A program made the position numbers and the translations under genes. Of a DNA stretch of 63,916 nt, positions 28,318-46,926 are shown in pieces (position 1 is the first letter of the stretch; each line of letters begins with the position of its first letter). Source of the DNA: Bacillus sp. AFS055030 (GTDB lineage Bacteria > Bacillota > Bacilli > Bacillales > Bacillaceae_G); contig NZ_NUGT01000008.1 in assembly GCF_002574545.1 (NCBI RefSeq), positions 9,995-73,910 on the forward strand. Reading direction: 5' to 3'. The notes under the pieces are model-generated. The model ran no database searches, was not told the DNA's origin, and saw only the letters and a program-made list of their open reading frames with translations.

Positions 28318-28384
28318 AGGCACTGTTGTATTTGAGGGTTTATTTTAATAGAATAATAAAGTGCTAGAATTTAAGGAGGAAACG

Positions 28385-29104
28385 ATGGAAGAGACGATTA
28401 GTTTACAGGAATTATTCGGCGTTATTAAGAAACGTCTAATCATGATAATTAGTATTACTGTTGTAGCCACAGTGGTTACAGGAGTCATTAGCTATTTATT
28501 TTTAACCCCGATTTATCAATCTTCAACACAATTATTAGTAAACCAAAAAGAAACAAAAGATTCTTCGATTTATCAGAATAACCAAGTACAAACAAATGTT
28601 CAGTTGATTAATACGTACAATGTTGTTATTAAGAGTCCAGCTATTTTAGATGAAGTTATTAATCAATTAAATTTAGATTATACAGTTGCAGAACTGACTA
28701 AAAATATCACTGTTGCAAGCGAAACAAATTCACAAGTATTTACAGTTTCTGTACAAGATTCTGATCCAAAGCAAGCACAAGCGATTGTTAATACGATTGC
28801 AAGTGTTTTCCAGACAAAAATCAAAACAATTATGAGTGTAAATAATGTAACTGTTTTAGCAAAAGCAGATTTAAGTGAAGATCCGATTAAACCAAATAAG
28901 AAATTAAATGTAGCAATTGGTTTTGTTGTTGGATTAATGATTTCAGTTGGTATTGCATTCTTATTAGAGTTCTTAGATAACACAGTAAAAACTGAAAAAC
29001 AGCTTGAAGAATTATTAGAGTTACCAATACTGGGTGTAATTTCTGAAGTATCTGAAGGGAAAATCACTCCTAAAATAAATTTAAAATTAGGAAAGGGTGC
29101 GTAA
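28385..29104 (+). CDS. Capsule chain-length modulator / kinase activator (Wzz, CapA/EpsA-like)
   Basis: A protein of about 239 aa with helices near 19-40 and 172-195 enclosing an extracellular Wzz-type domain (about 42-165), then a short cytoplasmic tail. It matches the CapA/YveK/EpsA modulators that activate the tyrosine kinase encoded next and set polymer length. ATG 28385 follows AAGGAGGAAACG; a GTG at 28361 is in frame but upstream of that ribosome site. It is the first gene of the operon. Confidence 0.92.
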   Translation: MEETISLQELFGVIKKRLIMIISITVVATVVTGVISYLFLTPIYQSSTQLLVNQKETKDSSIYQNNQVQTNVQLINTYNVVIKSPAILDEVINQLNLDYTVAELTKNITVASETNSQVFTVSVQDSDPKQAQAIVNTIASVFQTKIKTIMSVNNVTVLAKADLSEDPIKPNKKLNVAIGFVVGLMISVGIAFLLEFLDNTVKTEKQLEELLELPILGVISEVSEGKITPKINLKLGKGA

Positions 29105-29105
29105 A

Positions 29106-29801
29106 ATGGTTAAAAAAACAACTAAAGAAAAATTAAAAAGATTTCTTATTACATTAACAAACCCTAAATCACCATTTGCAGAGCAATATCGAACAGTTCG
29201 TACGAACATTCAATTTTCTTCGATTGATCGAAAAATAAAATCTATTTTAGTAACATCTTCTGAACCTTCAGAAGGTAAAACAACGACTATTGCCAATCTT
29301 GCAGTTACATATGCTCAGCAGGAAAAGAGAGTGCTTTTAGTAGATGCAGATCTACGTAAACCGCAATTGCATTCTGTTTTTAAGTTGGAAAATTTTAAAG
29401 GTTTAACAACTGCAATTACACATGAAAAGTCCTTAAAGGACGTTATACAAAAAACTGAGCTTAACAATCTATCAATTTTAACTTCAGGTCCTATCCCACC
29501 AAATCCATCTGAACTATTGTCTTCAGAAAAAATGAAGAAATTGATTGAACAAATGTATGAACAATATGATGTGATACTTTTTGATGCGCCTCCATTATTA
29601 GCAGTTACAGATGCTCAAATCATTTCACAAGTTTGTGATGGAACGATTTTAGTTGTGCGAAGAGGGCACGCAGCAAAAGAAAAAATTAAAAAAGCAAAAG
29701 AGTTATTAACACTAGTAAACGCAAATATTCTAGGTGTGGTATTAAATAGAGCAGAACAAGAAAAAGACGGTTATTACTATTACTACGGTAACGAAAAATG
29801 A
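29106..29801 (+). CDS. Capsule tyrosine kinase (CapB/EpsB/CpsD-like)
   Basis: A BY-kinase of about 231 aa: Walker A in SSEPSEGKTTT (about 51-61), Walker A' in LLVDADLRKPQLH, Walker B in VILFDAPP, and a Tyr cluster YYYYYG at the C-terminus as the autophosphorylation site. It works with the modulator just upstream, which lies 1 nt before its start, and phosphorylates sugar enzymes such as Ugd. It is opposed by the phosphatase that overlaps its end. Confidence 0.93.
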   Translation: MVKKTTKEKLKRFLITLTNPKSPFAEQYRTVRTNIQFSSIDRKIKSILVTSSEPSEGKTTTIANLAVTYAQQEKRVLLVDADLRKPQLHSVFKLENFKGLTTAITHEKSLKDVIQKTELNNLSILTSGPIPPNPSELLSSEKMKKLIEQMYEQYDVILFDAPPLLAVTDAQIISQVCDGTILVVRRGHAAKEKIKKAKELLTLVNANILGVVLNRAEQEKDGYYYYYGNEK

Positions 29802-30571
29802 TTGATTTACACTGTCATATTTTACATGGATTAGATGATGGACCGACTACAATGGAAGATAGTATTAATATGGCTCGAGCAGCTGTGGACAATGGGATTC
29901 ATACAATTGTTGCATCACCTCATCATCAAAATGGACGTTACAATACAGACAGAAAAGAAATCCTAGAAAAAGTAGAAGAGTTAAATAATGTATTAAAAGA
30001 AAAAGCTATACCTTTAACGATTTTACCAGGACAAGAAGTAAGACTTTATGGAGAATTGATTCAAGACTATGAATTTAATCGAATCGTTTCAATTAATGAT
30101 GGAAGACGCTATTTACTTTGCGAGCTTCCTTCATCTCGTATACCAAAATTTACAGAAAGATTGTTTTACGAGATGCAAGAAAATCGAATACTACCGATTA
30201 TTGTACATCCTGAACGAAACAAAGTACTTATAAATGAACCTGATATTCTTTTTGAATTTGTCCAAAAAGGGATCTTAACTCAACTTACTGCTTCATCAAT
30301 AACAGGTAAATTCGGTAAAAAAATTCAAAAATATGCTTTTAAATGTATTGAGTCAAATTGGGTGCATATTGTTGCATCAGATGCACACAACACGAAAAAT
30401 CGGAATTTTGAGTTAAATGAAGCATATGAAATCATCCGAGAAAAATTTGGAATAGAAACTGAGTTCCAAATGAGAGAAAATGCGCAAACAATATTGAATG
30501 GTGATGTTCTTTATCCAGAAGAACCACTTAAGTTTAAACAAAATATTTTTAGTCGTTTACTAGGAATTTAA
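29798..30571 (+). CDS. Capsule tyrosine-protein phosphatase (CapC/CpsB/YwqE-like)
   Basis: A 257-aa PHP-family metal-dependent phosphatase. Metal ligands are visible in MIDLHCHILHGLDDG at the start, in VASPHHQ (near 40), IVHPERN (near 135) and ASDAHN (near 192). It dephosphorylates the tyrosine cluster of the kinase. The ATG overlaps the kinase stop by 4 nt (ATGA), showing translational coupling. A 343-nt leader separates it from galU-1. Confidence 0.93.
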   Translation: MIDLHCHILHGLDDGPTTMEDSINMARAAVDNGIHTIVASPHHQNGRYNTDRKEILEKVEELNNVLKEKAIPLTILPGQEVRLYGELIQDYEFNRIVSINDGRRYLLCELPSSRIPKFTERLFYEMQENRILPIIVHPERNKVLINEPDILFEFVQKGILTQLTASSITGKFGKKIQKYAFKCIESNWVHIVASDAHNTKNRNFELNEAYEIIREKFGIETEFQMRENAQTILNGDVLYPEEPLKFKQNIFSRLLGI

Positions 30572-30914: not shown

Positions 30915-31790
30915 ATGAAGAAAGTAAGAAAAGCAATTATACCAGCTGCAGGATTAGGAACACGCTTTTTACCTGCAACTAAAGCAATGCCAAAAGAAAT
31001 GCTACCAATCGTAGACAAACCAACAATTCAATACATTGTTGAAGAAGCAATCGAATCAGGTATTGAAGATATCATTATCGTAACAGGTAAAGGAAAACGT
31101 GCAATTGAAGATCATTTTGATTATTCATATGAGCTAGAACAAAATTTATTAGAAAAAGAAAAATATGCGCTATTAGAACAAGTTAAAGCTCCATCTAATA
31201 TCGACATTCATTATATTCGTCAAAAAGAACCTAAAGGATTAGGTCATGCTGTTTGGTGTGCTCGTAACTTTATCGGCAACGAACCATTTGCAGTATTACT
31301 AGGTGATGATATTGTTGAAGCTAAAACTCCAGGATTAAAGCAGTTAATGGACCAATATGACAATACATATTCTTCAGTTATCGGTGTTCAAACAGTACCA
31401 GAAGAAGAAACGCACAGATATGGCATTGTTGAACCGCTTATGCAAGAAGGTAGAAGATACGAAGTAAAAAACTTTGTCGAAAAACCAGCACCAGGTACAG
31501 CACCTTCTAATTTAGCAATCATGGGCCGCTATGTATTCACACCTGAAATTTTTATGTACTTAGAAGAACAAAATATCGGTGCAGGTGGCGAAATTCAATT
31601 AACAGATGCCATTCAAAAATTAAATTCAATTCAACGTGTATTTGCATATGACTTTGAAGGGAAACGTCATGACGTTGGTGAGAAATTAGGGTTTATTAAA
31701 ACGACAATAGAGTTTGCATTAAAGAATGAAGAAATAAGAGATGATTTATTGACGTATTTACATGACATGTTAACAGTAAATATTAAATAA
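30915..31790 (+). CDS. galU: UTP-glucose-1-phosphate uridylyltransferase (copy 1)
   Basis: A 291-aa GalU/GtaB. The nucleotide-binding motif [19 protein letters not shown] is at 13-31, the LGDDI metal site near 135, and the FVEKP and GEIQLTDAI segments follow. It makes UDP-glucose, the precursor for Ugd (42072) and then UDP-glucuronate. It differs from the copy at 48540 at only a few positions. The start follows ATGGAGGGACTTAGGGA. It is the first biosynthetic gene after the leader. Confidence 0.96.
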
Positions 31791-31796
31791 GGATGG

Positions 31797-32486
31797 ATGA
31801 TCAGATTGAAAGCAATGAGATTGGAACAATCAGAATATGCTTCAGGGCCACTCTTATCGATAGAAACAGTTGAAAAAAGAAGGATCTATTTAATTACAAA
31901 GAGATTAATGGATTTAATCGGAGCAATCTTTGGTCTTCTATTATTATTACCTGTGTTTATTGTAGTAGCAATTTTTATTAAGGTAGAAGATCCAAAAGGT
32001 CCGGTTTTCTTTTATCAAACAAGAGTCGGTAAAAATGGAAAAGAATTCAAAATGTACAAGTTCCGTTCAATGGTAACGGATGCTGAAGAACGATTGAAGG
32101 AGCTTCTAAAATACAATGAAGTTTCTGGTGCAATGTTTAAAATGAAGGATGATCCGAGAATTACAAGGATTGGTAAATTTATTCGGAAAACATCGATTGA
32201 TGAGTTGCCACAATTCATAAATGTTTTATTAGGTGATATGTCACTTGTTGGTCCAAGACCACCACTTCCTCGAGAAGTTGATGAATATACAGATTATGAT
32301 AAACAGAGATTACTAGTGACGCCTGGTTGTACTGGACTATGGCAAGTTAGTGCCCGAAATAGTGTAGGCTTTGATGAAATGGTTCAATTAGACCTACAAT
32401 ATATCAGAGAAAGATCATTCTTATTTGATATAAAAATTATTTTTAAAACAGTCCTTGTATTATTTGGATCAAAGGATGCATTTTAG
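31797..32486 (+). CDS. Undecaprenyl-phosphate sugar-1-phosphate transferase (initiating enzyme)
   Basis: A 229-aa monotopic phosphoglycosyl transferase (bacterial sugar transferase family). A hydrophobic re-entrant segment (about 43-65) is followed by VFFYQTRVGKNGKEFKMYKFRSM and the catalytic DE pair in TSIDELPQF; PGCTGLWQVSAR lies near the end. It moves a sugar phosphate onto undecaprenyl phosphate to start each repeat unit. TTG 31806 may be the true start, since the spacing from AAGGATGG fits better than for ATG 31797. Confidence 0.9.
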   Translation: MIRLKAMRLEQSEYASGPLLSIETVEKRRIYLITKRLMDLIGAIFGLLLLLPVFIVVAIFIKVEDPKGPVFFYQTRVGKNGKEFKMYKFRSMVTDAEERLKELLKYNEVSGAMFKMKDDPRITRIGKFIRKTSIDELPQFINVLLGDMSLVGPRPPLPREVDEYTDYDKQRLLVTPGCTGLWQVSARNSVGFDEMVQLDLQYIRERSFLFDIKIIFKTVLVLFGSKDAF

Positions 32487-32606: not shown

Positions 32607-33074
32607 TTGATAAAGAAGAGAAATCGCAAACCACGATTATGCTTGGTATCTTCTTCAGGAGGTCATTGGGAGCAACTTCAAAAACTGCAACCTCTTATTG
32701 AAAAGTACGATGGTTTTATGGTGACTGAGCAAACAGTGTTCGAAGCAAATGCTAAGTATTTAATGAAGCAAACTGATTTAAAGGATAAATGGATGCTACT
32801 TAAGATGTTATACAATACAGTATACTCACTCTTAATTTGGTTTAAGGAACGACCTGATTTTGTTGTAACAACTGGTACAATGGTTGCTTATCCATTTTAT
32901 TTATTGGCTGTACTATTCAATAAGAAATTTATATTTATTGAAACCTTTGGTAGGGCAAATATGCCTACAGTAGCAGGAAAAAAGATGGAGAAACATACTG
33001 ATTTATTTATTGTTCAGTGGGAGACTCAGAAAAAATTCTATAAGAAAGCTATATACGGTGGGTGTTTATATTGA
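32607..33074 (+). CDS. Alg14/PssD/CpsF-like glycosyltransferase membrane subunit
   Basis: A 155-aa protein with a Rossmann-like N-terminus (LCLVSSSGGHWEQLQKL), a hydrophobic segment near 88-112, and the TFGRANMPTVAGKKM block typical of Alg14/CpsF. This subunit anchors the catalytic partner to the membrane and helps bind the acceptor lipid. TTG 32607 starts behind AGGAGC. It overlaps the next gene by 4 nt (TTGA), so the two halves are made together. Confidence 0.85.
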   Translation: MIKKRNRKPRLCLVSSSGGHWEQLQKLQPLIEKYDGFMVTEQTVFEANAKYLMKQTDLKDKWMLLKMLYNTVYSLLIWFKERPDFVVTTGTMVAYPFYLLAVLFNKKFIFIETFGRANMPTVAGKKMEKHTDLFIVQWETQKKFYKKAIYGGCLY

Positions 33075-33571
33075 TTTTCATAACAGTAGGTTCAAGGAAT
33101 TATCCCTTTGATAGACTCTTTATTAAATTAGACGAGTTATATGAGAGTAAGGTTCTTACTCAAAAAGTGTTTGCTCAAATCGGTGCATCCACATATAAGC
33201 CAAAACACTTTGAATATAAAGATTATATATCCCAAACCGAATTTCTTCAAAAGGTTCAAGAAGCTGAAATTGTGGTGAGCCATGGGGCTTCGGGCTCAAT
33301 CATGAAGGCACTTAATGCTGGTAAGAAGGTAATCGCTGTTACCCGCCTTGAAAAGTATGGAGAGCATATTAACGATCATCAAATTCAGAACAATGAAGCG
33401 TTCGTGAGTAATAAATATGTCCTAATGGCTGATTTGGAGCTGACAGATTTAGGTGAATGCTTTCAAAAAATTTATGCTGGAACAGACGGACTGGTTCCTT
33501 GGGAAAATAAAGATCCAATGGCAATAATTAATCTCATAGATAACTTTATACAGGAAAATTGGAGGACATGA
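33071..33571 (+). CDS. Alg13/PssE/CpsG-like glycosyltransferase catalytic subunit
   Basis: A protein of about 166 aa with the GT28 C-terminal fold: IFITVGSRNYPFDRLF at the start and VVSHGASGSIMKAL (donor-binding loop) near 75. With the Alg14-like protein upstream it forms one bipartite enzyme that adds the second sugar. TTG 33071, six nt after GGTGGGTG, is the preferred start and overlaps the upstream stop. Its own stop overlaps the next start (ATGATG). Confidence 0.85.
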   Translation: MIFITVGSRNYPFDRLFIKLDELYESKVLTQKVFAQIGASTYKPKHFEYKDYISQTEFLQKVQEAEIVVSHGASGSIMKALNAGKKVIAVTRLEKYGEHINDHQIQNNEAFVSNKYVLMADLELTDLGECFQKIYAGTDGLVPWENKDPMAIINLIDNFIQENWRT

Positions 33572-34437
33572 TGGACAAAAAGAAATTATTAAAAAAAATA
33601 AAGTACTGTCTCCGTATACTCCCAGATTCATTGTATATTCAGATTTACTATTTTGCACAGTTCAAAAAGTTTTGTAATTTACACCAACCCCGAACATATA
33701 ATGAAAAATTAAATTGGTTAAAAATACATGATCGAAATCCTGAATATATTAAGATGGTTGATAAATATGAGGTAAAAAAATATATTGCTCCAATTATAGG
33801 TAGTGAATATGTTGTTCCAACACTTGGGATTTGGGATACATTTGACGAAATTGATTTCGACAAGTTACCTAATCAGTTTGTTTTAAAGTGTACTCATGAC
33901 TCAGAAGGTCTGGTTATTGTAAAAGATAAAAATAAATTGGATGTAATTGCCGCAAAGAAGAAAATTGAAGCAGCTCAGAAATGTAATTTCTACTATATTG
34001 GTCGAGAGTGGCCTTATAAACATCTAAAGCCAAGAATAATTGCAGAAAAGTATATGGAAGATCATGTTGATGGTGAATTACGTGACTATAAGTTTTTCTG
34101 CTTTGATGGGGTACCTAAAGCAATGTTTATCGCTTCAGACAGAGAAGTTGGAGAAACAAAATTTGATTATTTTGATTTAGATTTTAATCAGCTTGATATT
34201 ATCCAAAATTATCCTAATTCCTCGAAAACACTTCGTAAACCTATAACATTTGAAAAAATGATTGAATTATCAAAGGTCTTGTCAAAAGATATTCCACATG
34301 TAAGAGTAGATTTTTATGAGGTTGATGGGAAGCTTTATTTTGGAGAATTAACTTTTTATCATTTTAGCGGATTTAAACCGTTTCAGCCTAACAAATGGGA
34401 TAGAGCATTTGGTGATTGGTTAAAGTTACCAAAATAG
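33571..34437 (+). CDS. TupA-like ATP-grasp protein 1
   Basis: About 288 aa, TupA-like ATP-grasp family: TYNEKLNWLKIHDRNPEY near the start, ATP-binding QFVLKCTHDSEGL (about 102-114), PRIIAEKYM, DYKFFCFDG, and metal-binding VRVDFYEVDGKLYFGELTFY near the C-terminus. TupA is needed for teichuronopeptide synthesis in an alkaliphilic Bacillus. ATP-grasp enzymes join a carboxylate to an amine, so an amino-acid amide on the polymer is a reasonable guess. The loop reads SEG where the other two copies have SGG. The start overlaps the upstream stop; GGAGG lies 5 nt before. Confidence 0.85.
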   Translation: MDKKKLLKKIKYCLRILPDSLYIQIYYFAQFKKFCNLHQPRTYNEKLNWLKIHDRNPEYIKMVDKYEVKKYIAPIIGSEYVVPTLGIWDTFDEIDFDKLPNQFVLKCTHDSEGLVIVKDKNKLDVIAAKKKIEAAQKCNFYYIGREWPYKHLKPRIIAEKYMEDHVDGELRDYKFFCFDGVPKAMFIASDREVGETKFDYFDLDFNQLDIIQNYPNSSKTLRKPITFEKMIELSKVLSKDIPHVRVDFYEVDGKLYFGELTFYHFSGFKPFQPNKWDRAFGDWLKLPK

Positions 34438-34583
34438 ATTTGGATGATTTAATATAAAGGATTGTATGGACGTTTTGAAAACTTGCTTTTGCAATTCATC
34501 TATTTATGAAAGTGTTATACAAAAAGCTTGATACAGCAGAAATGTTGTAACCTGCAAAAAAATGTAAGACGGAGAAATTAGAT

Positions 34584-35666
34584 ATGAAAATTATGATGGT
34601 CATTACAGGGATGCAATCTGGCGGGGCAGAACGAGTTATGGCAACGTTGTGCAACGAGCTTTCTAAAAGAAACCAGGTACGTTTGCTGGTAATGAAAGAA
34701 AAGAAAACAGATTATGAATTAAAAGATAATATTGAATTTGTTGCTGGTAATGTTACAAATCAGAGCCTTTTGAAATCCGTCCGATTTGTCCGCCAACAAA
34801 TGGATGATTGGCAACCACAAGTAGTATTGTCGTTTATGACAAAATCGAACCTTATCACGCTTCTTGCCAAAAAAATGGCCAAGTGGAAGGCGCCGGTAAT
34901 CATTGCAGAGCGTGCAAATCCTAACTACACTGGAAGTCTTCTGAAAGTACTCCGTAAATTTGTATATCCAAGTGCGGATGGCTGCGTATTCCAAACTAAG
35001 CAAGCTCAAAAGTATTATAATGATATTCTCAATTGTAACAGTATAGTATTACGAAATCCCTTGAACCCTAATTTTAAAGTTCAATTACACCAAGGGGTTA
35101 GAACAAAGAGAATTGTTTCTGTTGGGCGCCTATCTGTGGAAAAAAATCAAAGGTTGCTCATTGAATCATTTTCTAAGATAGCAGTTTCGTATCCGGAATA
35201 TTCAGTTGAAATCTTTGGAGAAGGTCCATTAAGGAATGAATTGCAGAGCTTTATAAACAAGAAAAATCTGCAAAGTCAAGTTCGTTTAATGGGGAGAAAA
35301 GACAATATTCAGGAGTACATCTCTGATGCAGAGATTTTTGTACTTCCGTCAAATTCTGAGGGGATGCCTAATGCCTTATTGGAGGCTATGGCGTTGGGAA
35401 TGGCATGTATAGCCACAGATTGTCCGATTGGAGGACCTGCAGTAATTATAGAAAATAAGAAAAATGGAATATTGGTGCCTATGAATGAGTCACAGATAAT
35501 GGCTGATACACTGGAATTACTAATTGGTAATGATGGTCTATCCAGTAGGCTCAGAGCAGAAGCAAAAAAAGTTGTAGAGCATTATGACACAGAAAAAGTA
35601 TGTGCAGAGTGGGAGACCTATATTAGGGGCGTAGTGAGTTCTATTGCCAAAAATGGTCGAAGTTAA
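34584..35666 (+). CDS. GT4-family glycosyltransferase 1
   Basis: A 360-aa GT-B enzyme. The N-terminal domain begins KIMMVITGMQSGGAERVM (the GGAER acceptor loop). The C-terminal glycosyltransferase group 1 domain has IVSVGRLSVEKNQRLLIESF and the donor-binding EX7E segment (SNSEGMPNALLEAMALG). It adds one sugar of the repeat unit at the cytoplasmic side. Codon and base use looks less AT-rich than the flanking operon ends. It lies 20 nt before TupA-like gene 2. Confidence 0.9.
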   Translation: MKIMMVITGMQSGGAERVMATLCNELSKRNQVRLLVMKEKKTDYELKDNIEFVAGNVTNQSLLKSVRFVRQQMDDWQPQVVLSFMTKSNLITLLAKKMAKWKAPVIIAERANPNYTGSLLKVLRKFVYPSADGCVFQTKQAQKYYNDILNCNSIVLRNPLNPNFKVQLHQGVRTKRIVSVGRLSVEKNQRLLIESFSKIAVSYPEYSVEIFGEGPLRNELQSFINKKNLQSQVRLMGRKDNIQEYISDAEIFVLPSNSEGMPNALLEAMALGMACIATDCPIGGPAVIIENKKNGILVPMNESQIMADTLELLIGNDGLSSRLRAEAKKVVEHYDTEKVCAEWETYIRGVVSSIAKNGRS

Positions 35667-35686
35667 AGAGAGTTAAGGGGATTGAC

Positions 35687-36592
35687 ATGAATATTATTGA
35701 TAAATTTAAAAAGGATCCGAGCTTGTTCATGATTATGTCTCTTGGTCGAGTGTTGCCAGATACAGTAGGATGTGATGCATTTTATCTGAAGCTTCTATAT
35801 AAAAACAGAATGAAGAAAAAGTTAGAGCTAACAAATCCACAGACATACAATGAAAAATTACAATGGCTGAAACTCTATAATCGACGCCCGGAGTACACAA
35901 TGATGGTTGATAAATTTCGAGTAAAGGAATATGTTGCTTCTGTTATTGGAGAGGACTATATAATTCCAACTTTGGGTATTTGGGAACGTTTCGATGATAT
36001 TGATTTTGATAAATTGCCGAATCAATTTGTATTGAAATGTACACATGATAGCGGCGGCCTAGTTATATGTAAAGATAAAACTAAATTGGACAAAGCCAAG
36101 GCGAAGAAGCAAATCGAAAGATGCTTAAAAAGAAAATACTTTCTCAACACTAGAGAATGGCCTTATAAGGACGTTTTGCCGCGTATTATAGCAGAAAAAT
36201 ATATGGATGACGAATCTGGAAATGGATTGAATGACTATAAGTTTTTTGCATTTGATGGTATTGTCAAAGCTATGTATATTGCTACTGATAGAGGGGCGGA
36301 TACTGAAACCTGCTTTGATTACTTTGATAGAGATTTTGTACATCTTCCATTTCGTAATGGATATTCCAATTCACAAAAAAAGCTCGTTAAACCGGAAAAC
36401 TATGAAAAAATGATTGAACTTGCTGAAAGATTGAGTAGAGATATGCCCCATGCAAGAATTGATTTTTATAATATAAACGGTAAAGTCTATTTTGGGGAGA
36501 TTACATTCTACCATTGGAGTGGAATGAAGCCTTTTGAACCTCAAGAGTGGGATTATAAGTTTGGTGATTGGATAAATCTGCCGAAGAGATAA
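35687..36592 (+). CDS. TupA-like ATP-grasp protein 2
   Basis: A 301-aa paralogue of the gene at 33571, with TYNEKLQWLKLYNRRPEY, QFVLKCTHDSGGLVI (canonical glycine loop), PRIIAEKYMDD, DYKFFAFDG and ARIDFYNINGKVYFGEITFY. All ATP-grasp landmarks are present, so it is probably active. It follows GT4-1 closely, as if each glycosyltransferase had its own ATP-grasp partner. AGTTAAGGGGA precedes the ATG. Confidence 0.86.
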   Translation: MNIIDKFKKDPSLFMIMSLGRVLPDTVGCDAFYLKLLYKNRMKKKLELTNPQTYNEKLQWLKLYNRRPEYTMMVDKFRVKEYVASVIGEDYIIPTLGIWERFDDIDFDKLPNQFVLKCTHDSGGLVICKDKTKLDKAKAKKQIERCLKRKYFLNTREWPYKDVLPRIIAEKYMDDESGNGLNDYKFFAFDGIVKAMYIATDRGADTETCFDYFDRDFVHLPFRNGYSNSQKKLVKPENYEKMIELAERLSRDMPHARIDFYNINGKVYFGEITFYHWSGMKPFEPQEWDYKFGDWINLPKR

Positions 36593-36702
36593 ACGAAGGA
36601 ATTAATTATATAAAGACGATTGATTATTATAGTCATACAACCAGCCTCCCTAAGTTAAAATTCCAATTTATTTACTCAATGCTGTGTAAAGAGGAGATTT
36701 AA

Positions 36703-37797
36703 ATGAATTACAAAAATAAAAAAATAATATTTGTTACAGGCTCTCTAGCTGATGGCGGGGCAGAGCGTGTAATGTCAATTTTGGCAACAATGTGTGCAGA
36801 AGCGGGTGCAGATGTCACTCTAGTAGTTATGCGTGAAAAAAAGTATATATATCATGTATCAGATAAAGTAAATTGTATTCAGATTAAAACTGGTAGTAAA
36901 AAATTTAAAACAATTTCAAGGATTAAACAGTTGCGTTCAATATTGAAAAAAAGTGATGACTCGACGGTTATACCCTTTCTGCCATTGATTACGTTATATA
37001 CTATGATTGCGAATATGGGGATCAATAAACGAGTTATAACTTCTGAACGATCCGATCCCCGTATTAGTTTCTGGGCTAAAAATTTAAGCTGGAAAGATCG
37101 AGTTGGAATCCTCATTATGCGTAAGATGGGACTTTATAATTTGGCTGAATTGATGGTATTTCAAACGCCAGATGCACAATCATATTACAATAAAAATCGT
37201 CAAAAGAGGAGTTGTATTATTCCAAATCCTTTAGATACAGATAAATTACCTAAAAGATATGAAGGAGAACGTGAAAAACGAATTGTGGCAGCTGGTAGGT
37301 TTTCTGAAGAAAAGAATTTTTCACTATTAATTGAAGCCTTTTCGATTTTCCATAAGAAACATCCGGAATATAATATGACAATCTATGGCGAGGGAGCACT
37401 GCGAAACCAATTAGAAAGAGAAATAAAGAAATATGACTTAATGAGCATTATTAAGTTACCTGGATTTGCATCAAATTTGCCTGAAGAAATCAACAAAGCT
37501 GCAATGTATGTTTCTACTTCTAATCATGAAGGAATATCCAACTCTATGCTTGAAGCTTTGGGCATGGGAATACCATCGATTGTAACAGACTGTCCTGTTG
37601 GAGGTGCAAGGATGTTTGTTAAGACCGATGAAAATGGCATTTTAATTCCAATGAATGACTGTGATGCATTAGTAGAAGCTATGAGTAAAATTGCAGAGGA
37701 TAGAGCGTATGCAGAAAAAATTTCGGCTAATGCTACAAAAATCAGAGAAGAAATATCAGCAAAAAATATTTGCAAAATGTGGTTAGAACTAGTTTGA
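36703..37797 (+). CDS. GT4-family glycosyltransferase 2
   Basis: A 364-aa GT-B enzyme with the DGGAERVMS acceptor loop, IVAAGRFSEEKNFSLLIEAF, and the donor site SNHEGISNSMLEALGMG. It is clearly related to GT4-1, so the pair may stem from an old duplication together with the ATP-grasp genes. GAGGAGATTTAA precedes the ATG. 110 nt before it and 68 nt after it hold no further gene. Confidence 0.9.
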   Translation: MNYKNKKIIFVTGSLADGGAERVMSILATMCAEAGADVTLVVMREKKYIYHVSDKVNCIQIKTGSKKFKTISRIKQLRSILKKSDDSTVIPFLPLITLYTMIANMGINKRVITSERSDPRISFWAKNLSWKDRVGILIMRKMGLYNLAELMVFQTPDAQSYYNKNRQKRSCIIPNPLDTDKLPKRYEGEREKRIVAAGRFSEEKNFSLLIEAFSIFHKKHPEYNMTIYGEGALRNQLEREIKKYDLMSIIKLPGFASNLPEEINKAAMYVSTSNHEGISNSMLEALGMGIPSIVTDCPVGGARMFVKTDENGILIPMNDCDALVEAMSKIAEDRAYAEKISANATKIREEISAKNICKMWLELV

Positions 37798-37865
37798 TAC
37801 CAGATAGAATAATTGAGTAGTATTTATCAAAGTAACTAAAATAATAATTTTTTGGAGGTGACTAG

Positions 37866-38843
37866 ATGAAAGTATTGAAAAAAATTAAAGATCCCAAAAA
37901 GATAGCGTTGTATATCAAGTGGAAACTAGATAAAGCTGGTTTTTTTAATTTTTGGAATGATGAGACTTATTTGAAGTTTGTATATAGATTACGGATGGGT
38001 AAAAGGTTAAATTTAGCCAATCCTCAATCGTTTAATGAAAAAATGCAGTGGCTAAAATTGTATGATAGAAATCCACGGTATTCGTTAATGGTTGACAAAT
38101 ACGCTGTCAAAACTTATGTAGAAGAAATGGTAGGTCCAGAATACATTATACCAACGATAGGAGTTTACGATAAGTTTGAAGATATTGACTTCAGTCAGTT
38201 ACCTAATCGATTTGTAATTAAATGTACCCATAACTCTGGAGGAGTAGTTGTAGTTAATGACAAAAAAGATATTGACATTAAAAAAATTGAAAAAGATTTT
38301 AAAAGGATGTTGAAGAGAAATTTTTTCTATGCAGGCCGAGAATGGCCCTATAAAAATGTTCCCCCAAGAATTATCATTGAGGAGAATTTGCAAGATGAAA
38401 ATGAAAAGATACAGATTAATGATTATAAGTTGATGTGTTTTAACGGGGAATTAAAGTGTTCCTTTGTATGCTCTAATAGAAATTCAAAGCAGGGGTTATG
38501 TGTTAACTTTTACGATGAAGATTGGTTGCCAATGCCGTTTGAAAGACATTATCCTAGAAATTCAGTTGAAATTGAAAAACCGAGTCAATATGAAAAAATG
38601 GTACAATTGGCAAAAATTCTATCCAAAGATATTCCTTTCGTCAGGGTCGATTTTTATCAAAAGGGAGAGCAGGTATATTTTGGTGAATTGACCTTTTATC
38701 CAGGAAGTGGTGCAGAAGAATTTACCCCCGAAATTTGGGATTACAAATTAGGACAGTGGATAAATCTATCAACAGTATCACAGGCGCATTTAGTTGAGGA
38801 AGATAGGAATCATTCTAAAATAGGGGAGTTTTATGAAGATTAG
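37866..38843 (+). CDS. TupA-like ATP-grasp protein 3
   Basis: The third and longest paralogue (325 aa): SFNEKMQWLKLYDRNPRY, RFVIKCTHNSGGVVVV, PRIIIEENLQDEN, DYKLMCFNG, VRVDFYQKGEQVYFGELTFY. An extra C-terminal tail of about 30 polar residues overlaps the start of the polymerase gene by 11 nt. It is the most divergent of the three. TTTGGAGGTGACTAG precedes the ATG. Confidence 0.86.
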   Translation: MKVLKKIKDPKKIALYIKWKLDKAGFFNFWNDETYLKFVYRLRMGKRLNLANPQSFNEKMQWLKLYDRNPRYSLMVDKYAVKTYVEEMVGPEYIIPTIGVYDKFEDIDFSQLPNRFVIKCTHNSGGVVVVNDKKDIDIKKIEKDFKRMLKRNFFYAGREWPYKNVPPRIIIEENLQDENEKIQINDYKLMCFNGELKCSFVCSNRNSKQGLCVNFYDEDWLPMPFERHYPRNSVEIEKPSQYEKMVQLAKILSKDIPFVRVDFYQKGEQVYFGELTFYPGSGAEEFTPEIWDYKLGQWINLSTVSQAHLVEEDRNHSKIGEFYED

Positions 38844-40047
38844 TAGAAAAAAACTATGCTTGGGAATATTTGAGATAGCGTTTGTTTTCTTACTTTTCCA
38901 ACAAAATATATTTCCGAGTGAATTGACATTTATTTCGTTATTATTAACAGTCATAGCAGGAATATTTTTGATTATGTTAGATGGGAAGTTTTATTTAAAC
39001 CCATTTCTTATATCCTATGGTCTATTTTTCCTGTTTGCACTAATCTTATCCTTAATTGGCTGGGGTACAGGGAATGTTGAGGATCGATTGATGCTTTTGC
39101 TAATGAAGTACGTATCCTCCATATTTATTTATAATTATCTTATGCGTCTCGAAAAACCTGAAAAATTCATGAGGTTATATGTGGCTATTAGTATAATTTC
39201 TTTGGTTATAATATTCCTTTTAGTTGGTGATAATGCAGTAGCATCCAGGTTGGGGCATAACGGTTCTGGTAGTATAGTTAGTTATCAAATAGCAGGGGTT
39301 CCTATATACAAAAGTTCTAATGGAACTGCTACCTTTTGCGCTATAGCAACATTATTCTTACTATATTATTCTGTGCGATTTAAAAAGTGGTATTGTTATA
39401 TTTTTATTGTCTTCTTAACAATTGGAATGTTACTTTCTGGATCAAGAAAAGGATTGTTGATTTATATACTATATATAATATACACGTATTTTTTTATGAG
39501 AAAGGGTATTACGTTAAAAAAAATAGTTTTGTTCCTTGTTGTTCCAATAGCAGGATATATACTTCTTTCTAAAGTCCCTATTATTTATGATGCAGTAGGG
39601 ATTAGGCTTGAGTCTATGATAATGAACATATTTTCACAATCCAATTCATTAGATGGTAACTCTTATCTTATGCGGCAGCAACTAAAAAATGTAGCATATG
39701 AATGGATAGGAAGTAAGCCGTTTTTGGGATATGGTTTTAATACTTTCCAAACCGCGACGGGTTATGGTGCTGAAAATAACTTGTTACAAATTATGGTGGA
39801 ATTTGGACTTATAGGAGCATTAATTTATTATAGTTTCTTATTCTCATTATTTAGAGTAATTTTAAGAATAAAAAATAAATCTGTTTTAGCAGGATTATTT
39901 TCTGTCCTAATTTTGTCAATCTTATTACAAGATTATGGAAGTGTAACATATTCGTGGCAACATATGACTATCTGGTATTCAGTATTCTGGGCAGTAGCTA
40001 ATCATCACATGGAGAGGAAAAAGTTCATTAAACTTTATAATAAATAG
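38833..40047 (+). CDS. Wzy-type O-antigen/capsule polymerase
   Basis: A 404-aa protein with about ten to twelve membrane helices and the O-antigen ligase/polymerase pattern: a long periplasmic-side loop and LGYGFNTFQTATGYGAENNLLQIMVEFG before the last helices. It would join the repeat units outside the membrane. It overlaps TupA-like gene 3. Wzy proteins share little sequence, so the call rests on topology and position. Confidence 0.82.
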   Translation: MKISRKKLCLGIFEIAFVFLLFQQNIFPSELTFISLLLTVIAGIFLIMLDGKFYLNPFLISYGLFFLFALILSLIGWGTGNVEDRLMLLLMKYVSSIFIYNYLMRLEKPEKFMRLYVAISIISLVIIFLLVGDNAVASRLGHNGSGSIVSYQIAGVPIYKSSNGTATFCAIATLFLLYYSVRFKKWYCYIFIVFLTIGMLLSGSRKGLLIYILYIIYTYFFMRKGITLKKIVLFLVVPIAGYILLSKVPIIYDAVGIRLESMIMNIFSQSNSLDGNSYLMRQQLKNVAYEWIGSKPFLGYGFNTFQTATGYGAENNLLQIMVEFGLIGALIYYSFLFSLFRVILRIKNKSVLAGLFSVLILSILLQDYGSVTYSWQHMTIWYSVFWAVANHHMERKKFIKLYNK

Positions 40048-40299
40048 GAAGTACGGGTTGGAAAATTGGGTGCCTGGGCTATGAGAATGAGCCTATGATA
40101 TATATATAAAGCTACGAGCTATGTCCTTTATAAGTGGATCTGTCGAGTTAATACCTGACTTATTCAGTATATGGCCATAGGTCTTTTTCATTGCAAAGAA
40201 CAACGAAATTGAACATTTGAAGTATTTTTAATAGTGAAATCGAATTATCTTAACTTTAGAAAAATAAATTAGTTCTGTTTTTATTAAGGGGTAAGTATT

Positions 40300-41763
40300 T
40301 TGAATGAGAAAAACCTTCAGAGTAAAGTTTTCCATGCAACAAAATGGTCATCAATAACAGAGATTACAGCAAAGTTATTTAGTCCAGTAACAAATATGAT
40401 TTTGGCTAGGATTCTAGCACCAGAAGCTTTTGGCGTAGTTACAACAGTAACTATGATAATAAGCTTTGCCGATATGTTAACTGATTCTGGTTTTCAAAAG
40501 TATATAGTCCAGAATAAATTTAAAAATGAAGATGAGAAGAATAAATATGCTAATGTGGCTTTTTGGACAAACATGGGGATTTCAATCCTTTTGTGGGGAA
40601 TTATTTTTATATTCCGTCAACCAATTGCAAATTTGGTTGGAAATCCTGGATTAGGTAATGTCCTTGCAATTGCATGTTTACAATTACCGTTAACCTCGTT
40701 TTCAAGTATTCAAATGGCATTGTACCGAAGAAGCTTTGATTTTAAGACATTATTTTGGGTTAGATTAATTTCTATTTTTATACCATTCATTGTTACAATT
40801 CCATTAGCCTTATTTGGGTTTGGATATTGGGCATTAATTATTGGAACATTAATCATTCAAGTTTCAAATGCTCTTATTTTAACAATCAATTCAAGTTGGA
40901 AACCTACTTTTTTTTACAGCTTTAAAAGATTAAAAAAAATGCTCTCATTCAGTGTGTGGTCATTAATTGAAGCAATTTCAATATGGTTAACAATCTGGGT
41001 TGATTCATTTATTATAGGAACAGTTTTAAACCAGTATTATTTAGGATTGTATAAAACATCAACTTCTTTAGTTAATACATTAATGGCACTGATAACTTCT
41101 TCAATAGTGCCGGTATTATTTTCTGGATTATCACGTTTGCAAGATAATGACACAAAGTTTAATCAACTATTTTTTAAGTTTCAAAGAATAGTGTCTATAA
41201 TTGTATTTCCTTTAGGGATTGGTATGTTCCTTTATAGTGATATAGCGACTAAAATTTTGTTAGGAAGTCAATGGTCAGAAGCTAGTAATGTGATAGGAAT
41301 ATGGGCTTTAACCAGCTCAATGCAAATTGTCTTTGCTCATTTTTGTAGTGAAGTATATCGTGCTAAAGGTAGGCCAAAATTATCCTTTCTAGCACAAATA
41401 CTCCACCTAATAGTTTTAGTTCCTACCTGTATCATTAGTTCTAAATACGGATTTTGGGCATTGGTATATTCACGATCATTGATAAGACTTGAAGGCATCT
41501 TAGTTCACTTTATTGTTATGAAATATTTAATTAGGTTTCCAATCTATAAAACATTTAAAAATGTTTTACCGACTATTATATCTGCAGTATCTATGGGGAT
41601 AATCGGATATGCATTTCAGCAAATAAATGAGGGCTTCATATGGAGTTTTATATCAATTTTTCTATGCATAGTATTCTATTTTGGAATACTATTTTTATTT
41701 CCAAGTTTACGAAATGAGACATTAAAAATATCCAAGATGGTAATTTCAAAAAAAAATAAATAA
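40300..41763 (+). CDS. Wzx-type repeat-unit flippase
   Basis: A 487-aa MOP-superfamily protein with about twelve to fourteen helices. The N-terminus FHATKWSSITEITAKLFSPVTNMILARILAPEAFG is typical of polysaccharide flippases of the TuaB/WzxC type. It moves the lipid-linked repeat unit across the membrane. TTG 40300 starts behind AAGGGGTAAG. The 252 nt before it hold no recognised feature and may contain a promoter. Confidence 0.9.
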   Translation: MNEKNLQSKVFHATKWSSITEITAKLFSPVTNMILARILAPEAFGVVTTVTMIISFADMLTDSGFQKYIVQNKFKNEDEKNKYANVAFWTNMGISILLWGIIFIFRQPIANLVGNPGLGNVLAIACLQLPLTSFSSIQMALYRRSFDFKTLFWVRLISIFIPFIVTIPLALFGFGYWALIIGTLIIQVSNALILTINSSWKPTFFYSFKRLKKMLSFSVWSLIEAISIWLTIWVDSFIIGTVLNQYYLGLYKTSTSLVNTLMALITSSIVPVLFSGLSRLQDNDTKFNQLFFKFQRIVSIIVFPLGIGMFLYSDIATKILLGSQWSEASNVIGIWALTSSMQIVFAHFCSEVYRAKGRPKLSFLAQILHLIVLVPTCIISSKYGFWALVYSRSLIRLEGILVHFIVMKYLIRFPIYKTFKNVLPTIISAVSMGIIGYAFQQINEGFIWSFISIFLCIVFYFGILFLFPSLRNETLKISKMVISKKNK

Positions 41764-42071
41764 TAGCTAAAAAAAATATTAGATAAGGCATTTACCAAAT
41801 TAGAGTAAATAATCTATAAAGCTCTAGAGCAACTTCGACTTTAAAAATTATAGTATTTGTTACCATCCTAGATATGTAGAGAACGGTAGTAATTGTTTTG
41901 TAAAATACATTGGTGATTACCATAAGTTACTTTATGTTCTGATTAGTTAAGTTATTTGATTTTATGTTTATGGATAGAGCGGAAGATAATTTTTAAATAA
42001 TACTCTTTTGAATGATTAGATTTTTTTAATAAAAGAAACTGAGTTAATTTATGAGAAAAGGAAGCGAGATA

Positions 42072-43499
42072 ATGTACAAGATAGCAGTTGCAGGTACAGG
42101 TTATGTCGGATTAGTGGCAGGTGTATGTTTTGCTGAAGTAGGCCACCAAGTAACCTGTGTGGACATCGACGAGAATAAAGTAAATATGATGAAACAAGGA
42201 ATTTCTCCTATATTTGAGGAAGGACTTGAAGAATTAATGCAAAAGAATTACGCAGCGGGTAGATTAAATTACACGACAGATTATGCACAAGCTTATAAGG
42301 AAGCAGACGCTATTTTTATTGGTGTTGGTACACCAGAACTACCTGATGGTTCTGCTAATCTTTCATATATTGCAACAGTTGCTAGACAGATTGCTGAGTC
42401 AATTGAAAAGGATTGTTTGGTAGTTGTGAAGTCAACTGTTCCTGTTGGTACAAATGATAAGGTGGAGCAGTTTATCTATGACTTCCTTCCACATGACGGG
42501 GAAAAATATATTGGAAACTCCTCTAATAATGGCGAAAAAGAAATTAGAGTAGAAGTCGCATCAAATCCGGAGTTTTTAGCACAGGGTACAGCGGTTAAAG
42601 ATACTTTACATGCTGCAAGAATTATAATAGGTACAGAAAGTAAATGGGCACAAGAATTGTTAATGAATATTTATGAGCCATTTAATATCCCAATTGTGTC
42701 TGTAAGTAGGCGTTCAGCTGAGATGATTAAATATGCTTCGAACGATTTTCTTGCTCTTAAAATTTCTTACATGAACGACATTTCTAATCTATGTGAGCTA
42801 GTCGGTGCTGATATTGAAGATGTAGCAGTTGGAATGAGCTTTGATGATCGGATTGGCAGTAAATTTTTAAATGCTGGTATTGGTTACGGTGGCAGCTGTT
42901 TCCCTAAAGATACGAAGGCATTGAAGTATATTGCAGAGCAACACGGGTATGAACTTAAAACAGTCAGCGCTGCAATTGATGTAAATACTGAACAAAAAAC
43001 CCTACTTTATAAGAAAGCAAGTAAGAGATTAATAACATTTAGTGGTTTAAAAGTTGCAGTTTTTGGTTTAACATTCAAGCCTGGTACAGATGACTTGCGA
43101 GAGGCACCATCTCTAGACAATGTTCCTTTATTATTGGAACAAGGGGCAGATATTTATGCTTATGATCCGGTCGGAGCAGATAACTTTAAACGTGTTTATC
43201 CAGAAGGAAAGAATGGCAGAGGTAGTATAACATATGTTAAAAATCCTCAAGATGCGTTAAAAGATGCAAATGTTTGCTTCATCTTTACAGAGTGGGGCGA
43301 AATTAAGGCTATTAAACCAGAAGAATATAAAAATTTAATGAGAACTCCATTAGTTTATGATGGTCGAAATATTTATGGAGTTAGTTATATGAAAGAGGCT
43401 GGGGTAGAATACTACTCTGTTGGAAGACAAAATGGGACAAGCAGGCTTGCCATTGTAAAAAATACAAAGGAGAAGAATCTAAGTGAAACAACAGTTTAA
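42072..43499 (+). CDS. ugd: UDP-glucose 6-dehydrogenase
   Basis: A protein of about 475 aa with the NAD-binding GTGYVGLVAGVCFAEVGH at the start, the catalytic Cys in GYGGSCFPKD (near 276), and the GLTFKPGTDDLREAPS block in the C-terminal domain. It oxidises UDP-glucose to UDP-glucuronate and is a known substrate of capsule tyrosine kinases. ATG 42072 follows AAAAGGAAGCGAG; the in-frame ATG at 42051 has no ribosome site. It overlaps the epimerase gene by 17 nt. Confidence 0.95.
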   Translation: MYKIAVAGTGYVGLVAGVCFAEVGHQVTCVDIDENKVNMMKQGISPIFEEGLEELMQKNYAAGRLNYTTDYAQAYKEADAIFIGVGTPELPDGSANLSYIATVARQIAESIEKDCLVVVKSTVPVGTNDKVEQFIYDFLPHDGEKYIGNSSNNGEKEIRVEVASNPEFLAQGTAVKDTLHAARIIIGTESKWAQELLMNIYEPFNIPIVSVSRRSAEMIKYASNDFLALKISYMNDISNLCELVGADIEDVAVGMSFDDRIGSKFLNAGIGYGGSCFPKDTKALKYIAEQHGYELKTVSAAIDVNTEQKTLLYKKASKRLITFSGLKVAVFGLTFKPGTDDLREAPSLDNVPLLLEQGADIYAYDPVGADNFKRVYPEGKNGRGSITYVKNPQDALKDANVCFIFTEWGEIKAIKPEEYKNLMRTPLVYDGRNIYGVSYMKEAGVEYYSVGRQNGTSRLAIVKNTKEKNLSETTV

Positions 43500-44520
43500 T
43501 TCTATAGACAAAAGCAAGACATACCTAATTACGGGTGCAGTAGGTTTTATCGGTTTCTATTTATCTAAGAAACTTCTTGAACAAGGGGCGCGAGTAATTG
43601 GTATTGATAATATAAATGACTATTATGATGTTAACCTTAAGTTTGCTCGTCTCGAGAAACTTAAACCTTTTGCTAACTTTACATTTATTAAAGGTGACAT
43701 TTCAGATAAAACAATGATTGAGTCTGTTTTTGAGGAGTACAAGCCAAATGTTGTTGTTAACCTTGCTGCCCAGGCTGGGGTGCGTTATTCCATCGAGAAC
43801 CCAGATGTATACATCCAAAGTAATATTATTGGCTTTTATAACATCCTTGAAGCATGTCGCTATTACCCGGTAGATCATCTTATTTATGCATCATCTAGCT
43901 CAGTCTATGGAGCAAACAAGAAGGTTCCTTTTGAGGAAACAGATATGGTAGATAACCCAGTTTCCCTTTATGCAGCAACTAAGAAATCAAATGAATTGAT
44001 GGCACATACTTATAGCCATCTTTATAAGATCCCAGCAACAGGACTTCGTTTCTTTACAGTTTATGGACCAATGGGTCGTCCGGATATGGCCTATTTTGGA
44101 TTTACCAATAAGTATTTTGCTGGAGAACCGATTAAAATCTTTAATAATGGTGATTTTGAGAATGATTTGTATCGTGATTTTACTTATGTAGATGATATCG
44201 TAGAAGGAATTGAACGATTACTTAACAATCCTTCTGTAGGTGAGGAAGACGTGCCTCATCGAGTATTTAACATTGGTAACAACAGTCCCGAGAAGTTGAT
44301 GGTGTTTATTGAAACCCTCGAAAAGTGCTTAAGCAATGCATTGGAAAGGGAAGTAAAGTTTGAAAAGGTATTTGAGCCGATTAAGCCAGGGGATGTACCT
44401 GCGACTTATGCTTCAACTGAAGCACTAGATCAAGCTGTTGGATTTAAGCCAATGACATCTATTGAAAATGGATTACAGCAATTCGCGGATTGGTATATCG
44501 AGTATTATAAAAAGAACTAA
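43483..44520 (+). CDS. UDP-glucuronate 4-epimerase
   Basis: A 345-aa short-chain dehydrogenase-type epimerase. It has the cofactor loop GAVGFIGFYL, a DNINDYYDVNLK segment typical of CapI/LspL-type glucuronate epimerases, and the catalytic YAATKKSNE (YxxxK). It makes UDP-galacturonate from the product of Ugd, whose gene it overlaps. Both uronates are therefore likely in the polymer. The start is GTG behind AAGGAGAAG. Confidence 0.9.
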   Translation: MKQQFNSIDKSKTYLITGAVGFIGFYLSKKLLEQGARVIGIDNINDYYDVNLKFARLEKLKPFANFTFIKGDISDKTMIESVFEEYKPNVVVNLAAQAGVRYSIENPDVYIQSNIIGFYNILEACRYYPVDHLIYASSSSVYGANKKVPFEETDMVDNPVSLYAATKKSNELMAHTYSHLYKIPATGLRFFTVYGPMGRPDMAYFGFTNKYFAGEPIKIFNNGDFENDLYRDFTYVDDIVEGIERLLNNPSVGEEDVPHRVFNIGNNSPEKLMVFIETLEKCLSNALEREVKFEKVFEPIKPGDVPATYASTEALDQAVGFKPMTSIENGLQQFADWYIEYYKKN

Positions 44521-46886: not shown

Positions 46887-46926
46887 TGCACAGGTAATTT
46901 ATAATGATTGCCTGTGCATTTTTCTT
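46887..46926 (+). terminator. Terminator after pgcA
   Basis: Stem TGCACAGG / CCTGTGCA with a 16-nt loop, then TTTTTC. Confidence 0.85.

Follow-up and report, generated by a model that had tools for sequence, protein, structure and literature searches.

In Campylobacter jejuni, the TupA-like domain of Cj1438 has been described as an amide ligase that acts on a glucuronic acid (GlcA) of the growing capsule chain before extension; the next sugar is placed only onto the amide, by the transferase that is fused to the ligase (PMC11800379). The same mode of action is given for Campylobacter HS:19 (PMC13276843), and in the cases described there the amines used by such ligases are serinol phosphate or ethanolamine phosphate (PMC11800379, PMC13276843). 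In Bacillus halodurans, tupA has been tied to the teichuronopeptide, and strain C-125 is described as having no tupA paralogue (PMC8153356). The current work concerns 63,916 nt of Bacillus sp. AFS055030 (contig NZ_NUGT01000008.1, positions 9,995-73,910; this whole stretch is called the window), in which three TupA genes, each preceded by a glycosyltransferase (GT), lie in one capsule cluster. On balance, we lean towards a repeat unit of Wzx/Wzy type whose successive uronic acids are amidated singly, each in turn, by GT-paired TupA ligases, possibly with different amines.

The three TupA genes and their lineages

TupA1 (33571..34437), TupA2 (35687..36592) and TupA3 (37866..38843), which lie on the forward strand like all genes described below, encode predicted ATP-grasp amide ligases and are the only TupA genes in the assembled genome. 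Each protein matches the PF14305 (ATPgrasp_TupA) model over positions 1-240 of 241, with 241.3, 247.8 and 241.3 bits respectively against a cut-off of 25. A first-pass annotation had placed three TupA-like ATP-grasp genes of a capsule operon at 33571..38843, and these coordinates are exact. The order that it drew (ATP-grasp, GT4, ATP-grasp, GT4, ATP-grasp, polymerase) stands as listed, and the GT/ATP-grasp pairs exist; however, the first TupA gene is not unpaired. Directly upstream of it lie the Alg14-like half (32607..33074; PF08660, 43.5 bits, cut-off 27) and the Alg13-like half (33062..33571; PF04101, 49.4 bits, cut-off 22) of a split glycosyltransferase, so the first pair is Alg14/Alg13-TupA1 and each TupA follows its GT. 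The two family 4 transferases, GT4a (34584..35666; PF00534, 121.7 bits) and GT4b (36703..37797; PF00534, 109.3 bits), are 35% identical. The complete gene order is the priming phosphoglycosyl transferase (PGT), Alg14-Alg13-TupA1, GT4a-TupA2, GT4b-TupA3, Wzy, Wzx, Ugd and the epimerase.

The Alg13 and TupA1 genes overlap in the junction TGATG, in which the TGA stop shares its last base with the TupA1 ATG, and GGAGG is located five bases 5' of that ATG; the TupA1 start was taken as this ATG at 33571, the open reading frame (ORF) list opening at TTG 33559. The other GT-to-TupA gaps measure 20 nt (GT4a/TupA2) and 68 nt (GT4b/TupA3), and the TupA-to-GT gaps of the window are wider (146 and 110 nt). 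At the far end, the Wzy gene starts inside the TupA3 gene with an overlap of 11 nt.

An alignment of 60 sequences, consisting of the three window copies and 57 relatives (57 of 60 diversity-picked rows from 94 candidates), contains 28 invariant columns, and TupA1, TupA2 and TupA3 carry all of them, including K117, E170, D259, E271 and T273 in TupA2 numbering. We take the invariant lysines and acidic residues to be those that would bind ATP and metal, as such residues do in ATP-grasp enzymes. Decayed or broken ligases are ruled out, for the three genes have no internal stops and keep every invariant residue; the proviso of the first-pass annotation that they might be pseudogenes lacking metal-binding residues does not apply. 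Confident structure models of TupA2 and TupA3 have the ATP-grasp fold and, in a fold search, resemble D-Ala-D-Ala ligases and LysX/ArgX, and RimK as well. Sequence searches gave no useful solved relative (best single-protein match 2hek, E 0.023; best profile match 5b7c, E 0.68). In the fold search with the TupA2 model, the closest viral matches were giant-virus proteins from Marseillevirus LCMAC103 (E 2.5e-17) and Mimiviridae ChoanoV1 (named TupA-like, E 1.8e-15).

The three proteins had been called clear paralogues that differ along their whole length. They are homologues, TupA1 being 59% and TupA3 46% identical to TupA2 with differences spread along the entire length, but they do not form a set of recent paralogues. 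A tree of 117 TupA domains puts them in separate places. In a tree of 52 sequences, TupA1 groups with L095, L079, L031 and L066 (support 100/99; L and G labels denote comparison regions from other genomes) and TupA2 with L031 (100/98), and TupA3, of a different lineage, is nearest to L099, L062, L063 and L107 with weak support. Topology tests rejected a single group of all three (p-AU 1.8e-38) as well as a group of TupA1 and TupA2 (p-AU 6.7e-4), which rules out recent tandem duplication as their source. Similarly, 21 of the 22 multi-TupA regions in the tree hold no TupA whose nearest relative is co-resident, and the remaining region holds one. Judging from these trees, TupA genes that share one region usually belong to different lineages.

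The sequence motifs reported as common to the three hold with small variants, such as VIKCTH in TupA3 and ARIDFY and YFGEITFY in TupA2. Other motifs are specific: among 30 aligned rows, HDSEG is limited to the 5 TupA1-type rows, and the motif after the catalytic-site glutamate reads HFSG in TupA1, HWSG in TupA2 and several other lineages, and PGSG or PGNG in TupA3 and most of its 7 kin.

Glycosyltransferases beside TupA in other genomes

Two sets of regions were compared with the window. Set 1 comprises 78 regions from the best 80 of 546 relatives in a profile scan of genome contigs and is biased to close kin; the pairs L065/L069, L072/L093 and L078/L080 share much DNA, and all were kept. Set 2 comprises 37 hand-picked regions, leaving out matches below the cut-off and some weak or split ones (e.g. 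G359, G372, G049:C8). L151 of set 2 duplicates L101 of set 1; it was left out of the spacing test, the covariation test and the Alg13 count and kept elsewhere. Two of the 78 and one of the 37 regions have no TupA call, and many regions stop at contig ends. Gene labels were derived from our own iterative profiles, which left many genes unlabelled.

A GT directly upstream of TupA was more frequent than in shuffles in both sets: 41/101 in set 1 with the window (shuffles 0.31, p 0.026) and 17/35 in set 2 (shuffles 0.26, p 0.0055). Directly downstream there was no enrichment (34/101, p 0.26, and 6/35, p 0.85, respectively). By a rank test only, spacing is also tighter upstream than downstream (p 0.018). 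Three GT-to-TupA pairs were found in the window only, 1 of 116 regions (78, 37 and the window, with at least one duplicate and three without a TupA call); two such pairs occur in six regions, L031, L035, L038, L044, L048 and L049. Three TupA genes in one region were seen elsewhere in 4/78 regions of set 1 and 0/37 of set 2.

The first pair of the window is met again in other regions. Alg13 stands immediately 5' of TupA in 9 of 11 Alg13-holding regions (window counted, one duplicate dropped; the other two are L049 and L137), all of them chosen for holding a TupA; at an assumed chance of 10% per region, a rough guess, this count has a probability of 4.6e-8, or 3.7e-7 for the 8 of 10 without the window. 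The Alg14-Alg13-TupA1 unit is kept in all four close TupA1 relatives (L031, L066, L079, L095), with Alg14 and Alg13 71-84% identical to those of the window. A count in 398 genomes gave 12 Alg14 matches above the cut-off; besides the window, two of these are in TupA genomes, both adjoining TupA, and the Alg14/TupA genome overlap without the window is weak (p 0.076). Of the other transferases, a GT4a relative with 64% identity immediately precedes the TupA2 relative in L031, and GT4b has relatives with 59% (L031) and 62% (L036) identity.

Gene fusions were also observed. L054 (10853-13135) encodes a 760-residue protein with a Wzy_C polymerase domain and a C-terminal TupA domain, and L036 (8320-9990) a fusion of an Alg13-type domain and a GT4 immediately before a TupA gene; both fit a close link of transfer, amidation and polymerisation. 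Another gene of L036 (16647-18011) encodes a 454-residue TupA whose C-terminal half is, by eye, apparently repeated. In the same-order genomes L007, L009, L010, L012 and L018, TupA-matching proteins are longer, at about 450-510 residues, and their N-terminus looks coiled; in L009, L010, L012 and L018 the neighbouring gene product looks by eye like another ATP-grasp protein. These long proteins apparently represent a different use of the family.

Uronate supply, proposed assembly and alternatives

The genes around the TupA pairs are those of a Wzx/Wzy capsule cluster, with a priming transferase, flippase, polymerase and CpsB/CpsC genes all present. The PGT (31797..32486; TIGR03025, 301.7 bits, cut-off 295.55, with a PF02397 match at the corresponding genome place) would initiate repeat-unit assembly on the lipid carrier. 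The Wzy-type polymerase (38833..40047; PF04932, Wzy_C, 45.2 bits, cut-off 31.7) and the Wzx-type flippase (40300..41763; PF13440, 284 bits) follow TupA3. Next comes the UDP-glucose 6-dehydrogenase Ugd (42051..43499; TIGR03026, 428.1 bits, cut-off 189.8), which by its family would make UDP-glucuronate, so that uronate supply lies inside the cluster. The next gene encodes a short-chain dehydrogenase/reductase (SDR) epimerase (43483..44520; PF16363/PF01370), probably a UDP-glucuronate 4-epimerase supplying UDP-galacturonate (UDP-GalA). Its closest solved chain is 5u4q (364 bits, deposited as dTDP-glucose 4,6-dehydratase), followed by 6zl6 (150 bits), and none of the 25 NCBIfam matches listed (best 25 of 32) is above its own cut-off.

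Upstream of the PGT are chain-length, tyrosine kinase and phosphatase genes of CpsC, CpsD and CpsB type (28361..30571), namely a CpsC-type gene (28361-29104; Wzz, 78.6 bits), a CpsD-type middle gene named by eye from the sequence (29097-29801) and a CpsB-type gene (29798-30571; CpsB_CapC, 172.8 bits), and an ORF likewise named by eye as a GalU-type UDP-glucose pyrophosphorylase (30915..31790). A scan found 70 promoter-like sites, fewer than the 95.6 of shuffles, and 11 terminator-like sites against 8.8, so that the scan neither shows nor excludes operon breaks inside the cluster. The strongest terminator-like hairpin (46887-46918, 13 pairs) is located between a phosphoglucomutase gene and a LytR-type gene. 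A plasmid origin was considered and rejected, as a plasmid collection contained no near-identity match to 33571-40050.

The following course of assembly is proposed. The priming transferase would charge the lipid carrier with a first sugar phosphate, and Alg14/Alg13 would add a uronic acid next. TupA1 would use ATP to activate the C6 carboxylate of this uronate as an acyl phosphate and then join an amine to it. GT4a would add the following (uronic) sugar, which TupA2 would amidate, and GT4b a third sugar, to be amidated by TupA3 with a different specificity. The complete amide-capped unit would then be flipped and polymerised, the UDP-GlcA and UDP-GalA coming from Ugd and the epimerase. That all three TupA enzymes act on uronates in this order, as well as which sugars and amines are used, is inferred. 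The GT partner of each TupA may add the uronate itself or may add the sugar that comes after it. Amino acids or peptides are one option among several for the amine; amino acids are plausible because the cluster has no recognised amine-supply gene, which is a weak argument. In a stricter form, the cluster would be a collinear assembly line in which gene order equals reaction order, exchangeable GT-TupA modules fix both uronate and amine, and amidation gates the next transferase; this stricter form is tentative and rather doubtful. If true, the product would be an amide-decorated glycan of defined sequence, with side groups that could be deduced from the TupA lineages and exchanged along with them.

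The association of TupA with uronate genes was also surveyed against 40 chosen control regions, each with one strong priming transferase and none with a TupA; they start near the PGT and do not have it in the middle, four of them are short, and capsule genes are scarcer in them (a flippase was called in 10/40, against 18/37 in set 2). A sugar-6-dehydrogenase occurs in 15/37 regions of set 2 (p 0.042) and 35/78 of set 1 (p 0.0042), against 7/40 controls. When a flippase or polymerase is required, the comparison for set 2 is 14/18 against 6/17 controls (p 0.018). A subset figure of 14/20 against 7/40 (p 1.1e-4) was picked post hoc and is unmatched, and is not relied on. The link is suggestive and becomes weaker after control matching; the uronate case therefore rests on the genes of the window itself and on the Campylobacter precedent.

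Several observations weigh against successive amidation by GT-paired ligases. With a flippase or polymerase required, the dehydrogenase is found in 31/62 regions of set 1 and 6/17 controls (p 0.41); with matching on the flippase only, the values are 27/54 against 4/10 for set 1 (p 0.73) and 14/18 against 4/10 for set 2 (p 0.097). No dehydrogenase lies within the stretch in 22/37 set-2 regions. Covariation of GT4 and TupA does not tell the two sides apart (upstream Pearson 0.32, p<0.001, and Spearman 0.21, p 0.062; downstream Pearson 0.25, p 0.02, and Spearman 0.23, p 0.047), and spacing of 10 nt or less is found for 39/58 upstream and 21/42 downstream neighbours (Fisher p 0.10). In single regions the order differs: L049 has TupA before Alg14-Alg13, L137 has a GT4 after Alg13, the GT4a of L079 has no TupA after it, and the GT4b of L031 has its TupA before and not after. 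Finally, the fused GT of Cj1438 is the extender (PMC11800379), so a GT that stands before a TupA need not be the one that adds its acceptor. Coevolution of GT4 and TupA specific to the upstream side was tested for, and upstream could not be separated from downstream neighbours.

Fairly unlikely, among the alternatives, is a repeat with only one or two uronates, on one of which several TupA enzymes act serially and build a peptide or amine chain. Linked ATP-grasp ligases are described as often acting successively, with teichuronopeptides and O-antigen among the products (PMC4431377), and L102 has two directly overlapping TupA genes and L057 two in tandem. The TupA genes of the window, however, are kept apart by glycosyltransferases, and in L095 (13 kb) and the short contig L066 (3.8 kb) no TupA was seen other than that of the Alg14-Alg13-TupA1 unit.

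ATP-grasp enzymes of the Ddl/RimK/LysX fold include ligases that activate amino-acid carboxylates, and the TupA2 and TupA3 models match this fold. The reverse chemistry, in which the ligases activate the carboxylate of an amino acid and acylate an amino sugar, is nevertheless given little credence. No gene for making an amino sugar was recognised from CpsC to the epimerase (two genes there being named by eye), whereas genes for uronate supply are present, and those TupA-like domains that have been characterised act by activating the carboxylate of the sugar (PMC11800379, PMC13276843).

Just as improbable is partial redundancy, with two or all TupA enzymes performing the same reaction and retained by chance after exchange of capsule genes. 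Campylobacter HS:2 is described as having two transferases for one step, with no known reason (PMC11800379); in addition, TupA1 and TupA2 are 59% identical and the HWSG loop of TupA2 is common to several other lineages. Such copies are at odds with the three separate lineages in the tree, with the restriction of HDSEG to TupA1-type rows (5/30) and with the PGSG/PGNG of TupA3 and most of its 7 kin in place of HFSG and HWSG.

A teichuronopeptide-type wall polymer of polyglucuronate and polyglutamate, as in alkaliphilic Bacillus, is improbable. In its favour, the family is named after it, tupA is tied to it (PMC8153356), and TuaD (NF047673, 503.2 bits, cut-off 700) is the best NCBIfam model for Ugd and TuaB the third-best for Wzx, both under their cut-offs. 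Against it, the best PgsB match in the genome has 26.2 bits against a cut-off of 222.7 (weak evidence that lowers the odds of this polymer only slightly, as the published text may mean that C-125 lacks the polyglutamate cluster too; PMC8153356), and C-125 is given without a tupA paralogue (PMC8153356), whereas here there are three, with Wzx, Wzy, a PGT and three chain-extending transferases.

Successive amidation thus remains the preferred reading. The first-pass annotation had foreseen a uronic polymer with amide decoration through GT/ATP-grasp pairs, and this view is supported by the PF14305 matches, the ATP-grasp models and the uronate amide ligases of Campylobacter (PMC11800379, PMC13276843). 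Its further proposals did not gain support: the published amines are serinol phosphate or ethanolamine phosphate in place of amino acids or peptides (PMC11800379, PMC13276843), and a teichuronopeptide-like product finds no PgsB over the cut-off in this genome, a weak piece of evidence.

Comparison with known systems

A close known cluster, L031 from an Anaerostipes metagenome-assembled genome, resembles the window in the PGT (54% identity), epimerase (57%), Alg14 (81%), Alg13 (76%), TupA1 (74%), GT4a (64%), TupA2 (72%) and GT4b (59%), and its Ugd (30%) and Wzy (31%) are more distant. It differs in a pyruvyl transferase, in a third TupA of another lineage placed before GT4b, and in an extra ATPgrasp_ST gene: this sugar-transfer-associated ATP-grasp (L031:6544-7677; PF14397, 172.3 bits) lies between the relatives of TupA1 and GT4a.

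The Alg14/Alg13 pair of the window is presumably kin to PssD/PssE of Rhizobium. In Rhizobium, the two genes are reported to act together in transferring GlcA onto the first glucose, and the available part of the source mentions no TupA (PMC1403797). The likeness is that of a two-gene glucuronosyltransferase, and by analogy Alg14/Alg13 is a candidate for this activity. With tupA of Bacillus halodurans, the window shares the family name and the link to a uronate-containing wall polymer; it differs in having three genes, where that organism is described without a paralogue (PMC8153356).

The chemistry of capsules is hard to predict from genes, and annotation easily overlooks amide decorations. 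Amide ligases of this kind and their use in capsules are already known; what is new within the literature searched is their three-for-three pairing, with ligases from three lineages, since titles and abstract openings of open-licence articles contained no multi-TupA cluster and no amine code. This cluster shows that three-for-three GT-TupA pairing is possible. If each TupA lineage has its own acceptor and amine, it offers three enzymes side by side with which to crack that code.

As in Cj1438 and HS19.11, likened here by their published descriptions, a TupA-like ATP-grasp is linked to capsule glycosyltransferases; theirs is a single ligase domain joined to a GT2, and a phosphatase and a supply of serinol phosphate go with it (PMC11800379, PMC13276843). 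In the window, by contrast, three free-standing ligases of a Wzx/Wzy cluster stand beside two GT4 transferases and one Alg14/Alg13, and no amine-supply gene was recognised there. Amidation by these ligases would extend a mechanism worked out, in the literature found, only for Campylobacter capsules to Wzx/Wzy clusters, which, of the kind seen here, are also present in many gut-derived genomes.

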